Assembly (NCBI GenBank): GCA_018820315.1
Contig: JAHJOQ010000101.1
Coordinates: 1-34,733 of the forward strand
DNA from: Candidatus Zixiibacteriota bacterium
Lineage (GTDB): Bacteria; Zixibacteria; MSB-5A5; JAABVY01; JAHJOQ01
DNA: 34,733 nucleotides
Reading direction: 5' to 3'
Below are positions 20,164-26,613 of the stretch, one piece after another. A program made the position numbers and the translations under genes. The first letter of the stretch is position 1, and each line of letters starts with the position of its first letter. The notes under the pieces were generated by a model, which saw only the letters and a list, made by a program, of their open reading frames with translations, was not told the DNA's origin and ran no database searches.

Positions 20164-21183
20164 ATGGCAAGAGACCAGGTGAGTAAGCTGAAGTTCGAGG
20201 ATCTATACTCCCGAATCGACAAAGGGAGCGTTGAGCCGATTTATTTCCTGAATGGGAGCGAGGAGTATCTCAAAGTCGAGTTCCTGAAGCTTCTGAGATT
20301 GAAGCTGTTCGGCGATAAGAAGGCGACTGCCAATGTGGAGAAGATTTCGGCATCGGCCGGTTCCGCACCCGCGATTATCGATCTAACGTCTGACTATTCG
20401 CTGTTCTCCGGCGGGCGGCTGGTGGTTGTGTATGATATTCAGCGAATATCCAAAGCTGGACAGGAGATGCTGCTCTCGTATTTCCCGACCATTCCCGACG
20501 GTAACCATCTGGTGTTGTTCGGACCGGCGTCTTTCGATATGCGGACGAAGTTTTACAAGTATCTCACGCAGAATGCGACCTGGTCATCACTTTCGGCCCT
20601 CAGTGAGCGATCCGCACCGTTTTGGATCAAGAGGCGGATAAGTAAGTATGGTCTAAAGATTGAACAGCCCGCACTCGAACAGCTGCTGCGATATGTCGGC
20701 AACTCATACGGACTGCTCGCGAACCAAATAGATAAGCTTGTCATTGCAGCGGGGGACAAACAGACAATCGATGTCGCTGATATCGATAAACATACTGCGG
20801 TGGCGGCCGAATTCGAGGTCTTTAAGCTTCTTGAACTCGTTGATTCTCGCGATAGGACCCGTGCGCTGCAAGTATTGACCCGGCTGATGGAGAAGTCCGA
20901 CGGAATCCGGTCGGTGCTGTTCTGGCTGAGCGAGCGGTTTTTCCAGTACTATTTTATATCCTCAAACCACCGGCATTTGTCCGATGGAGAGATGGCCGCG
21001 AGTCTTCACATGTCGCCATATATCCTGAAGCGAATGATGGATTTGGTTCAGAAAGTGCCTTCCGAGCATTTCGAGAAGTCTATAAGAGCTATCACACAAG
21101 CCGAAGTCTCCCTGAGGTTTGCAAGCCTGCCGTCCAGGCTGGTTCTGGAGAATCTGATTATTTCTTTGACGGGTAGAGATTAA
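20164..21183 (+). CDS. holA: DNA polymerase III delta subunit (HolA)
   Basis: 339 residues, the normal family length. Recognisable blocks are the N-terminal PIYFLNGSEEYLKVEFLKLL (domain I), LFSGGRLVVVYDIQRIS, GNHLVLFGP, the middle helical domain with LLRYVGNSYGLLANQIDKLVIAAG, and the C-terminal collar domain (EFEVFKLLELVDSRDRTRALQVL). Delta opens the sliding clamp within the clamp-loader complex. It is divergent, as HolA proteins usually are, and has no intact Walker A motif, as expected. It is preceded by a leaderless-type promoter and followed 30 bp later by the ECF sigma gene, whose promoter lies in that gap. Confidence 0.9.
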   Translation: MARDQVSKLKFEDLYSRIDKGSVEPIYFLNGSEEYLKVEFLKLLRLKLFGDKKATANVEKISASAGSAPAIIDLTSDYSLFSGGRLVVVYDIQRISKAGQEMLLSYFPTIPDGNHLVLFGPASFDMRTKFYKYLTQNATWSSLSALSERSAPFWIKRRISKYGLKIEQPALEQLLRYVGNSYGLLANQIDKLVIAAGDKQTIDVADIDKHTAVAAEFEVFKLLELVDSRDRTRALQVLTRLMEKSDGIRSVLFWLSERFFQYYFISSNHRHLSDGEMAASLHMSPYILKRMMDLVQKVPSEHFEKSIRAITQAEVSLRFASLPSRLVLENLIISLTGRD

Positions 21184-21184
21184 C

Positions 21185-21210
21185 GGGAATAAACTGATGC
21201 TGCTTTTGTC
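21185..21210 (+). promoter_or_regulatory. ECF-type promoter element before the sigma factor gene
   Basis: GGGAATAA (21185-21192), 15 bases, then GTC (21208-21210) within TTTGTC. The same element with the same spacing is at 23067-23092. The ATG at 21214 is only 3 bases after GTC, which is closer than expected: either translation starts further in (a TTG at 21256 is in frame) or a sigma-70 promoter (TTGACG upstream) is also used. Confidence 0.6.
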
Positions 21211-21213
21211 TGT

Positions 21214-21792
21214 ATGAAGGCGAAGCCGAAGCAGGACGGCCAGCTCGATGAGGAGTTGGTCCTGGTCAGGAAAGCGAAACGGGGCGACCACGACGCTTTC
21301 TCACGGCTGGTTAGATTGAATCAGAAGAGAATCTACCGGCTGGTTTACAGGTTCTGCCGCGACCATGACACTGCTGACGAGCTTGCACAGGAGACTTTTG
21401 TGAAGGCGTATATGTCGCTCGACACATTTCGCGAGGAGTACCGGTTCTCCAGTTGGATCGGCACGATAGCCACGAATCTCGCGTTCAATCACCTGAAGAG
21501 ACAGAAGCGGCAGGTTTCCATAGTGGATTATCCTATCGAGGAGATCATCGCCGATCCCAATCCGGGAGCTGATCCATCGCGGAGCCTGACTGATAGAGAA
21601 ATGATGGACAGGCTTGAAGAAGAGGTCGAGAAGCTGCCGCCGGAATACAAAACTGTGTTTATTCTGAGAGTGAATGAAGAGCTGAGTTACGAAGAGATCG
21701 CGAAAAGGCTCGGAATAGAAATGGGAACCGTGATGTCGCGCTTGTTTCGAGCCCGTTCGAGGCTAAAGAAGGCTCTGGAGGATTATCTGTGA
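21214..21792 (+). CDS. ECF-family RNA polymerase sigma factor
   Basis: 192 residues. Region 2 covers roughly 20-85 (ELVLVRKAKRGDHDAFSRLV, CRDHDTADELAQETFVKAY, then FSSWIGTIATNLAFNHLKRQKR). Region 4 covers roughly 130-185 (LPPEYKTVFILRVNEELSYEEIAKRLGIEMGTVMSRLFRARSRL) with its helix-turn-helix. There is no region 1.1 or 3, and no C-terminal extension. The stop overlaps the GTG of the following membrane protein (GTGA at 21789), the classic sigma/anti-sigma arrangement. The shared upstream element suggests autoregulation. The assigned ATG lacks a Shine-Dalgarno sequence. Confidence 0.93.
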   Translation: MKAKPKQDGQLDEELVLVRKAKRGDHDAFSRLVRLNQKRIYRLVYRFCRDHDTADELAQETFVKAYMSLDTFREEYRFSSWIGTIATNLAFNHLKRQKRQVSIVDYPIEEIIADPNPGADPSRSLTDREMMDRLEEEVEKLPPEYKTVFILRVNEELSYEEIAKRLGIEMGTVMSRLFRARSRLKKALEDYL

Positions 21793-23060
21793 GCAAAGAT
21801 GATCGTGACAGATTAGAAATCGAGATAAACAGGTATCTCGACGGCGAGACATCCGACGGCGACTTTGAAAAGTTCCTGAAAGGTCGGCCTGAGGATTTCG
21901 ATGTAGATAGCTTCAGATCTCTCAAAACACGAGTCGAGAAGATTGAGGAACTCTACCGCCAGTTGGAGGAGCCTTCTGTTCCCGATGGCTACTGGGAAAC
22001 GTTTACTGATCGCGTCGTTGAGAAACTTGGTGCCAAGGAGACATCATCGCTATGGGATAGAGTGCTGGGAATCATCCTTCCGACAAGATGGCCGAAGATG
22101 GCATTCGGATATGCAGGCGCGCTGGCATCGGTGCTACTCGTTTTTGTAATTGGCAAGGCAATTATGGAGAGTGGCGCGGACACATACTCGCCAGCTTCAT
22201 ATCAGACGCCCGTTGTTGAGGATAAGTCTGCGGAGCACCCTGCGAAAGACGAAGTCGAAATCAGTGACGACGCAGAACCGAAACGCGTTGAGCTGCCTAA
22301 AAGTGCCAGCAGACTCGAACCGGTGGGAGTTGGGAACGTCGAGATTGATCGTGAGAAGAAATCGGGTATTGACGAATTTACAGTGGACGACAGGCAGATA
22401 GAAGCCGAAGCGCCATCGGGAGTTCCTGAAGGTGGCAAAGGAGCGGCGGAGAAAAAGGCCACAGCAGTTCCTGTTCCTGAGCCGAGTGAAGAGGATGTCA
22501 GGCTTGCGACTATCGAAATCATAGAAGGAGATGCTGAGCCTCATGATGATGTCGTCCCTGAAATGCTCCAAATGCCGGAGCCAATAGCAAATGATTTCGT
22601 GCCCGAGATCGTCAGAGAAGAACCATCCCCTATACCACCCATTGAGGGAGAGGAGCCTTCTCTGCATGAACTGAGCGATATAACACCTGACATTAGCAAG
22701 CAAAGTGCCATGCAATTTGCCATAAAGAGCACGTCGGGGCTCTCGGATGAAACCGATGGAAAGGGTGTCCGCGAGACCAGCGTCTGGAAATACGATAACT
22801 GGAATCTGGAAGACTTGCGCTCCCGCCTAAGATTCTACGAGGCGATTGTTGCCGACTCTGCGTTCTCAAGCGAGACATTCTCAGAATATGCCGAAATCAG
22901 ATCTTCTGTGGCCATTCTAACTCGCGATTCTATCGACATATACGACGCCGTGAACACAATCGACACCCTTCTCAACTACAATCAACAAATCGACAGACCT
23001 ACCTGGATGCTGCGTAGAGAGCAGATACGATCCCTCCGAAATTCGATGACTAATCCGTAA
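21789..23060 (+). CDS. putative membrane-bound anti-sigma factor
   Basis: 423 residues, GTG start coupled to the sigma gene. The cytoplasmic part (1-100) is charged and helical, with INRYLDGETS near the N-terminus as in anti-sigma factors and a PSVPDGYWETFTDRVVEKL segment. The zinc-binding HxxxCxxC motif is missing. One transmembrane helix (about 104-123, FGYAGALASVLLVFVIG) is followed by a long outer region of about 200 residues, rich in Glu, Pro and acidic residues and probably disordered, and a compact C-terminal domain of about 100 residues (VWKYDNWNLEDLRSRLRFYEAIV onward). Function is inferred from gene order and topology. The large periplasmic part suggests that it senses an envelope signal and releases the sigma factor. 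Confidence 0.7.
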   Translation: MSKDDRDRLEIEINRYLDGETSDGDFEKFLKGRPEDFDVDSFRSLKTRVEKIEELYRQLEEPSVPDGYWETFTDRVVEKLGAKETSSLWDRVLGIILPTRWPKMAFGYAGALASVLLVFVIGKAIMESGADTYSPASYQTPVVEDKSAEHPAKDEVEISDDAEPKRVELPKSASRLEPVGVGNVEIDREKKSGIDEFTVDDRQIEAEAPSGVPEGGKGAAEKKATAVPVPEPSEEDVRLATIEIIEGDAEPHDDVVPEMLQMPEPIANDFVPEIVREEPSPIPPIEGEEPSLHELSDITPDISKQSAMQFAIKSTSGLSDETDGKGVRETSVWKYDNWNLEDLRSRLRFYEAIVADSAFSSETFSEYAEIRSSVAILTRDSIDIYDAVNTIDTLLNYNQQIDRPTWMLRREQIRSLRNSMTNP

Positions 23061-23066
23061 ATTTCC

Positions 23067-23092
23067 GGGAATAATCGATTCTCTTGTTTGTC
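23067..23092 (+). promoter_or_regulatory. ECF-type promoter element before the VIT/VWA gene
   Basis: GGGAATAA (23067-23074), 15 bases, then GTC (23090-23092) within TTTGTC, identical in architecture to 21185-21210. The predicted start is near 23100, 30 bases before an ATG with a strong Shine-Dalgarno site. Confidence 0.65.
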
Positions 23093-23129
23093 AACTAACT
23101 GAGACGACAAAATCAAACGGGAGGTCAAA

Positions 23130-25409
23130 ATGAACCGGAACTTAGCTCCAAAACTGCTTGCTCTTACAGCGATGCTGCTTCTTTGCAGCAGGGCATTCGG
23201 CATCATCATTGTCGATCGGCCCAATCCAAACGACCGTTTCATATCGCTGCAGCAGCAACACGTTGATGTCTCCATTGTCGATGGTGTATCGCAGACGACC
23301 ATTTCGCAGACATTTCACAACAATCAGGGACGTCAGCTCGAGGGCACGTATCTATTTCCGATCCCGGAGGGAGCATCGGTATCGAATTTCAGTATGCTGA
23401 TTGGCGGAGTGGAAGTCGAAGGAGAAATCCTCGACAAGCGCGAGGCCGCTCAGCGTTATCACGAAATTGTGCGGCGCATGCAGGATCCGGGACTGCTTGA
23501 GTATGTCGGCAAGGATTTGTTTCAGGCACGTGTCTATCCGATTCCGCCGCATGGCGATGTCAAGATCAAGATCTTCTATCAGCAGGTGCTGCCATACGAC
23601 AACGGTGTCGTGACATATAGATTCACTTCAGAAGATCCGAAGTTTTATGCGGCTCCTATCGCCGATTACCGCCTGAATGTGGTGATCGAATCGCAATCAA
23701 AGCTCAAGGCTGTCTATTCTCCGACGCATAGCGTAGACATCGACCGTCCCGATGAATGGAATGCGGATGTGCTTCTTTCGCAGTCGAATCAGACAAGAAC
23801 GAAAGATTTCCTGCTCTACTATTCTGTTTCGAAAGAGGATGTCGGGCTGAATCTGCTGACTCATTATGACAGAGATGAGAATCAGGGTTACTTTCTCGGG
23901 CTGATCGCTCCCGATCTGAAGCAGGAGGAGGGTGCGGCTGCTCCGAAAAACGTGCTGTTTGTGCTGGACGTTTCCGGTTCGATGGCGGGCGAGAAGATCG
24001 AGCAGGCGAAGCAGGCGCTCAGGTTCTGTCTTAATTCACTGAATGAGAATAATAGATTTGGGATTGTCAGCTACTCTGATGAGATCACGCGGCTTTTCCC
24101 GGAGATGCTTGAGGCAAGCAGAGAAAGTGTGAGGGAAGCCATCGCGGCTGTCGATCAGCTCAAAGCTGAGGGGGGAACAAATATCAACATGGCGTTGCTG
24201 GAAGCGATTGGCATCGGTGGAGACAGATCATTTGCAGACTACATCATCTTCCTCACCGATGGCGAACCGACAGTTGGCGAAACCAATCCGCAGCACATTG
24301 CTGAGAATATCAAGATCGCAAACAAGGCAGGGTGGAAGATATTCTCGTTCGGCGTTGGATATGATGTCGACGCTAAGCTCCTCGACCGGCTGTCATCGGA
24401 GTCGAACGCTGTTGCGAGTTATGTGCGACCGGGCGAGGATACCGAAGTCAAGGTGTCGAGCTTCTTTGCTAAAATCGCCAATCCAGCCATGACCGATATC
24501 AAGATTGTATGTGACGGTAACAGCTTGGCTCAGATCTACCCACGGACGCTGCCCGATTTGTTCTATGGCATGCAGCTCGTGGTTGCCGGCAAATTCGAGT
24601 CAGCGGGCGGGGCGACTGTGAGGCTCGAAGGTTTCGTAGAGGGCAAGCCGAAAGCATACACATACAATGTCGAATTCTCGCCGAGACCTGGCGCTGACGA
24701 GCTTGTTCCGAGGCAGTGGGCAGTTCGACGAATCGGGTATCTTCTGGATCAGGTCGGACAGGGCTCTGCCACGACAGAAATCAAAGATGAGATTGTGAGA
24801 CTGTCGAAGAAGTACGGGATCGTGACGCCGTACACGTCTTTCTTCGTCGAGGACCCGGCATTGGCGCACCATCAGCCCGGATTTCCGACAATATTCAATG
24901 AAGAGGCTGTAAGACTCATGGCCATGCCTAGCAGCAATTCTATGCTAATTCTGGACGCGGAGTCAGGAAATGGCGGCAGCAAGAAAAGCGCGATCGCCCG
25001 GTCGGATGTGTCTAAGATGATGCTTGGGGATGTTTATGAGGAATTCGACGGCAAGGCTGCGCATGATTCTCCTTCCGCAGACGCATACCTGCCGACTACC
25101 GAGCTTGAGGCAAAGGTGACATCGCAGGTCGGTTCGGAGAGACTTTCACGACTGGCATCAATAGGTGACCGAACATTTCAGATGATCGGCAACACTCTGG
25201 TTGACAGCAAGTATGATGGCTCGCAGCAGATTATCAAGATCAAGCCGTTCAGCGACGCCTATTTCATGCTTCTGGAGATGAAGCCGGAAATCGGGAAGTA
25301 CCTGGTGACAGGAGACGAGATAATCGTGGTTGTAGGAGACATCGCGGTAAAGATATGCGAGGATGGCGAGGAGACGCTTAGCCAGGAGATTCGGGAGACA
25401 ATCGGCTAG
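23130..25409 (+). CDS. exported VIT and von Willebrand A domain protein
   Basis: 759 residues. A signal peptide (1-23, LLALTAMLLLCSRAFG) leads to a VIT domain (about 30-160: QQQHVDVSIVDGVSQTTISQ, TYLFPIPEGASVSNF, then KREAAQRYHEI). A VWA domain spans about 274-430 with a complete metal-ion site: D280-x-S282-x-S284, T350 and D377. The C-terminal third is helical and beta mixed, with a late segment (FQMIGNTLVDSKYD) of unknown function. This is the inter-alpha-trypsin-inhibitor heavy-chain arrangement, in bacteria a periplasmic or surface protein likely to bind other proteins through the metal site. There is no LPXTG or PEP-CTERM tag. GGGAGG lies before the ATG. Its promoter element matches that of the ECF sigma gene, and a strong terminator ends the unit. 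Confidence 0.92.
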   Translation: MNRNLAPKLLALTAMLLLCSRAFGIIIVDRPNPNDRFISLQQQHVDVSIVDGVSQTTISQTFHNNQGRQLEGTYLFPIPEGASVSNFSMLIGGVEVEGEILDKREAAQRYHEIVRRMQDPGLLEYVGKDLFQARVYPIPPHGDVKIKIFYQQVLPYDNGVVTYRFTSEDPKFYAAPIADYRLNVVIESQSKLKAVYSPTHSVDIDRPDEWNADVLLSQSNQTRTKDFLLYYSVSKEDVGLNLLTHYDRDENQGYFLGLIAPDLKQEEGAAAPKNVLFVLDVSGSMAGEKIEQAKQALRFCLNSLNENNRFGIVSYSDEITRLFPEMLEASRESVREAIAAVDQLKAEGGTNINMALLEAIGIGGDRSFADYIIFLTDGEPTVGETNPQHIAENIKIANKAGWKIFSFGVGYDVDAKLLDRLSSESNAVASYVRPGEDTEVKVSSFFAKIANPAMTDIKIVCDGNSLAQIYPRTLPDLFYGMQLVVAGKFESAGGATVRLEGFVEGKPKAYTYNVEFSPRPGADELVPRQWAVRRIGYLLDQVGQGSATTEIKDEIVRLSKKYGIVTPYTSFFVEDPALAHHQPGFPTIFNEEAVRLMAMPSSNSMLILDAESGNGGSKKSAIARSDVSKMMLGDVYEEFDGKAAHDSPSADAYLPTTELEAKVTSQVGSERLSRLASIGDRTFQMIGNTLVDSKYDGSQQIIKIKPFSDAYFMLLEMKPEIGKYLVTGDEIIVVVGDIAVKICEDGEETLSQEIRETIG

Positions 25410-26501: not shown

Positions 26502-26613
26502 TAGAGCAGCGCCGATTCCATTCGCTGATTTCCAGACCCATCTGGTCCTGCTATTCTCGCTCCGGGACCTTGTTTGGAATTTTTCATAACTCCACTCGTA
26601 ATAACAGTTTTTG

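Follow-up and report, generated by a model that had tools for sequence, protein, structure and literature searches.

An ECF sigma factor of Zixibacteria is predicted to read matching promoters before its own gene and a neighbouring VIT/VWA gene

A contig of Zixibacteria carries two short elements built from the same two boxes, one just before the gene of an ECF sigma factor and the other just before a VIT/VWA gene. Are both elements promoters, and are they read by the sigma factor encoded between them? If so, sequence by itself would have yielded a predicted regulon for a phylum that is uncultured, and the VIT/VWA proteins, widespread in bacteria and of unclear function, would be tied to sigma factors of envelope signalling.

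The locus and its two promoter-like elements

The window (the whole stretch of DNA analysed, 34,733 nucleotides) contains, in this order, holA, the ECF sigma gene, an anti-sigma gene, the VIT/VWA gene and pcm. The gene holA (20164..21183, + strand; DNA polymerase III delta, TIGR01128, 1.1e-55) is a conserved neighbour on the 5' side of the sigma gene throughout the class. The sigma factor (21214..21792, +) has 192 residues and consists of sigma2 and sigma4 only, joined by a short linker (PF04542, residues 32-99, 1.1e-17; PF08281, residues 132-184, 3.5e-18), which is the domain composition of ECF (group IV) factors; it scores 110 bits against TIGR02937, above the cut-off of 42.9. A cognate anti-sigma gene is expected next to such a factor, and the adjacent gene (21789..23060, +) is its predicted partner, given its homology to the zf-HC2 membrane anti-sigmas encoded at the same place in relatives and its helical model. 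The VIT/VWA gene (23130..25409, +; PF08487, 2.7e-32; PF00092, 4.4e-21) has a GGAGG Shine-Dalgarno sequence at 23120..23124 (+).

The anti-sigma factor comprises a cytoplasmic anti-sigma domain, a transmembrane helix near residues 105-123 and an extracytoplasmic part. The anti-sigmas of relatives match PF13490 and keep the zinc ligands of the His-Cys-Cys motif (ZAS, zf-HC2). The copy in the window gave no Pfam match, and the ligands are missing in the alignment. An AlphaFold model of the domain shows four helices plus the transmembrane helix at low confidence (mean pLDDT 62). A Foldseek search with this domain gave no significant match; RslA and RsiW were among the five best PDB entries, with E-values above 5.

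The first element (GGGAATAAACTGATGCTGCTTTTGTC, 21185..21210, +) has a -35 box GGAATA at 21186-21191, a 16-nt spacer and a -10 box GTC at 21208-21210. Only 3 nt lie between it and the sigma ATG (21214), which thus begins 6 nt past the G of the -10 box, and transcription is predicted to start at about 21218-21220. The second element (GGGAATAATCGATTCTCTTGTTTGTC, 23067..23092, +) has GGAATA at 23068-23073, again a 16-nt spacer, and GTC at 23090-23092, with 37 nt between GTC and the VIT/VWA ATG. A preliminary description of this DNA had reported GGGAATAA-N15-GTC at both places, and it located them accurately: the N15 gap and the TTT before GTC are common to both, and the spacers otherwise differ. 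It had also suggested searching the genome, where we found seven matches to GGGAATAA-GTC with a gap of N13-17 in 3.78 Mb. Only the pair in the window has the N15 gap, and only this pair is in promoter position; the remaining matches, as far as they were placed, lie inside genes or are not 5' of a start on the same strand.

We then scanned both strands of the window with a two-box matrix trained on 23 sites from other genomes, the window being excluded from training. The first element ranked first (18.8) and the second ranked second (16.1), followed by scores of 15.4 and 11.2. The third-best promoter-like site (GGAATTTTTCATAACTCCACTCGTAATA, 26575-26603, +) lies 120 nt 5' of an nfeD-flotillin pair. 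We rejected it as a target of the sigma factor, as it is conserved at neither of the two nfeD orthologs that we compared.

The likeness to ECF promoters pointed out in the preliminary description holds for the type of promoter and fails for the standard GGAAC-GTC form. Relatives show GGAATA-N16/17-GTAT, which excludes an element that is exactly GGAAC-GTC and places the pair in a GGAATA-N16/17-GT(A/C) class. The GTC form of the -10 box was seen in the window's family only, and relatives mostly have GTA(T). The promoter hallmark no longer defines the ECF family (PMC8103513). Compared with it, the elements have GGAATA at -35 and GTC or GTAT at -10, mostly without a C before GT.

Conservation of the element and co-variation with the sigma factor

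Conservation at orthologous loci, a check proposed with the original observation, bore it out. In each of the ten relatives where sigma, anti-sigma and VIT/VWA genes occur together, the element stands 5' of both the sigma and the VIT/VWA gene, in the form GGAAT(A/T)-N16 or N17-GT(A/C), with one VIT site starting AGAATA. Where the VIT/VWA gene is unlinked from the sigma gene, the element still stands 5' of it in most genomes, and the orthologous sigma gene, which adjoins holA and the anti-sigma gene, carries its own copy. Two genomes lack the element 5' of VIT/VWA (G019, p = 0.19; G032, p = 0.81), and no holA-linked sigma ortholog was found in either. In a third, G048, holA directly adjoins the VIT/VWA gene and the element is degenerate. 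Together they serve as natural deletion controls, although they are few and their genomes incomplete. The genome G036 keeps the VIT element and has none recognisable 5' of its sigma gene.

The -35 box offers a closer look at who reads the element. The crystal structure of E. coli sigmaE shows a hydrogen bond between R171 and the guanine of base pair -31, which is the final position of GGAAC (PMC6713349). The aligned residue in the window, the x of GTVxSR, is Met174 (codon 21733..21735, +), in the sequence GTVMSR. Across relatives this residue and base -31 vary together. Lysine pairs with GGAAC in 2/2 sigma genes, Met or Leu with GGAAT in 27 of 28, and Asp or Asn with GGAAG in 21 of 22. Not one mismatch occurs among the 52 sigma genes, the remaining two having no recognisable element. 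Base -31 is moreover identical at the sigma's own promoter and at the unlinked promoter of a YfbK-like target in 21/21 paired genomes. The tree has one well-supported switch from Met to Asp. Because this is a single event, the 50 sigma genes do not count as that many independent tests; the change from Met to Asp with T to G is one shared change at two promoters and not many independent ones.

A specificity code for ECF sigma factors, derived from how residues of the sigma factor and bases of the promoter co-vary, has been reported (reference 50 in PMC8103513). To the extent that the citing article describes it, that code and our observation are alike in that one sigma4 residue predicts one -35 base. 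Our case differs in being a natural switch (Met to Asp with T to G) within one orthologous sigma lineage and at two unlinked promoters. One residue and one base changing together in this way make the code directly testable.

These results suggest that the neighbouring sigma factor almost certainly reads the two elements. A direct regulatory link from it to the VIT/VWA gene is very likely, because the promoter changed across relatives together with the residue that is predicted to recognise it. We consider it highly probable that both elements are promoters of the following system. Region 4 of the sigma factor encoded at 21214 would read the GGAATA box by means of Met174; in canonical ECF sigmas, Arg or Lys at this position reads GGAAC. 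The membrane anti-sigma encoded at 21789 would hold the sigma factor until an extracytoplasmic signal, whose control of the anti-sigma we infer, frees it. The freed factor would then switch on the sigma/anti-sigma operon and the secreted VIT/VWA gene, together with no fewer than two other genes of this genome for extracytoplasmic products, a YfbK-like VWA protein and a serpin.

The sign of feedback at the sigma gene

The preliminary description read the first element as evidence of an autoregulated sigma factor. A promoter is indeed present 5' of the gene, but plain positive autoregulation, an older hallmark of ECF factors, does not follow, since the sigma ATG sits between the -10 box and the expected start of transcription. 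In E. coli, sigmaE-dependent transcription starts about 10 nt past the G of the -10 box (from MicA). With the ATG at only 6 nt, the transcript is expected to miss it, which makes self-activation doubtful. A variant of our explanation, which we put forward tentatively, is that the first promoter serves chiefly to express the anti-sigma gene, which would make the feedback negative and homeostatic, and that the sigma factor is made from transcripts that run through holA.

Several observations favour this variant. The ATG lies exactly 6 nt past the -10 G in the window, in its family-mate G002, in all four genomes sampled from its order (G004-G007) and in G011; in G002 the holA stop codon also overlaps the sigma ATG. 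The anti-sigma gene has its own ribosome-binding-site-like GGAGG (21777..21781, +), 7 nt 5' of its GTG, so that its translation may not depend on the sigma start codon. In families f8, f18 and f19 (L354, L364-L384) the element lies inside the sigma reading frame, usually at about codons 6-14, with the ATG 17 nt before GGAAGA, and about half of these genes have no ATG, GTG or TTG after the element. The valine codon overlapping the -10 box is GTA in 22/22 cases in these families, against 15.7% among nearby valine codons, which argues for selection on the DNA. Other observations speak against the variant. In families f13, f14 and f16 the ATG lies 16-24 nt past the -10 box, so that self-activation is possible there. 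Some other relatives have it at +9, where a leaderless message could result, and a TTG at 21256 in the window could start a shorter sigma factor. The sign of the feedback may thus differ between lineages. Slightly less probable still than the variant itself is its fullest form: a sigma-dependent promoter on or inside the sigma start through which the active factor makes its anti-sigma and not itself, a homeostatic loop fed by sigma from the housekeeping holA transcript, in a lineage with a naturally re-coded -35 specificity.

Alternative readers, other phyla and further targets

Could another ECF sigma factor of this genome read both sites in place of the neighbouring one? One of nine sampled paralogs (C74, GSVMSR) also has Met at the position of sigmaE R171, and its specificity could therefore overlap. 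The element, however, follows the holA-linked sigma gene throughout the class, both where that gene is missing and in the switch to GGAAG, and we regard this reading as improbable. Less probable again is that the two copies are operators bound by a different DNA-binding protein: the element has two boxes, a 16-17 nt spacer, a fixed strand and a position shortly 5' of gene starts, the sigma factor varies together with the base that its region 4 reads, and canonical GGAAC-GTC stands at the same place in other phyla. Chance similarity, against which a genomic count of so few copies would by itself be no proof, is rejected, since GGGAATAA-GTC with a gap of N10-20 occurs exactly twice in the window and twice in 0/100 shuffles (mean 0.11), and the element is conserved in all ten syntenic relatives.

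In other phyla, GGAAC-N15-18-GTC was found 5' of VIT/VWA genes in 33 of 76 loci, compared with 1 on the opposite strand, 3 in the reversed sequence and a mean of 1.3 (maximum 5) in shuffles. In Omnitrophota, locus L261 repeats the gene order of the window (sigma, zf-HC2 anti-sigma, VIT/VWA), with near-identical GGAACA-GTCTAA promoters 5' of both the sigma and the VIT/VWA gene. More VWA-type genes occur beside VIT/VWA and ECF sigma genes in Armatimonadetes and Spirochaetes (L293, 2490-4333; L298, 8803-9942).

The system predicted here resembles RpoE-RseA of E. coli and SigW-RsiW of B. subtilis in its sigma2+sigma4 factor, its downstream single-pass membrane anti-sigma (of zf-HC2 type in relatives), its promoters (-35 GGAA, -10 GT) and its envelope targets. 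It differs in several respects. Their -35 boxes are GGAAC/TGAAAC, whereas the window has GGAATA and sister families GGAAGA; they have Arg or Lys at the -31 contact, and here it is Met or Asp. In the present system, the anti-sigma of the window has lost the zinc ligands, the promoter is sited at the 5' end of the sigma gene or within it, and the targets are VIT/VWA, YfbK-like VWA and serpin genes. The marine proteobacterial sortase-target proteins (TIGR03788) are likewise secreted proteins with VIT and VWA domains; the VIT/VWA protein of the window scores 282.2 bits against that model, below its cut-off of 551.65. Literature searches for VIT/VWA with ECF sigma factors, or for Zixibacteria with anti-sigma factors, gave nothing relevant.

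The VIT/VWA gene had been proposed as the direct target. It is supported as a target by conservation, by the loss of the element in genomes without the sigma gene and by residue/base co-variation, but not as the sole one. A relaxed motif search of the same genome gave 43 matches, compared with 8 when the pattern was reversed. Since nearly all of the matches fall within genes, much of this excess is explained by codon bias. Besides the sigma operon, the matches in promoter position with secreted products precede the VIT/VWA gene, the gene of a YfbK-like VWA protein with CarboxypepD_reg (contig C6, L213 4869-6925; YfbK_C, 6e-38) and that of a secreted serpin (C122:16858, L200 1501-2854; 4e-111), the last directly behind a GGAATAAG-N15-GTAT element. 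With these two genes, a dedicated regulon of two promoters had to be abandoned. Throughout the class, nearly all of the 29 YfbK-like orthologs have an ECF-like upstream element, GGAATA or GGAAGA depending on the family, and serpin genes with the element occur in five more genomes (G004, G005, G006, G024 and G057). A serpin and an ITIH-like VIT/VWA protein under one promoter type suggest a theme of protease control, and the serpin of this genome hints at such a role outside the cytoplasm; these roles of the target proteins we infer.

In other genomes, the motif also outnumbers its reversed control (G057, 35 versus 4; G049, 20 versus 3; G023, 18 versus 5; G035, 16 versus 7). Sampled sites in G057, G049 and G035 lie 5' of many genes for apparently exported proteins and of three ECF genes, two of which are the orthologous sigma gene. 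Signal peptides were scored with a crude hydrophobicity test in 34 of 44 genes downstream of sites in these three genomes and a few others, against 48 of 83 controls (Fisher p = 0.03), a weak indication that exported products are enriched over neighbours. Secreted DUF4139-like proteins (L141, L156, L166 and L168, with a Pfam family call for L156 and L166) stand behind the same promoter in G049, G035, G044 and G061, and they are a possible further shared member of the predicted regulon.
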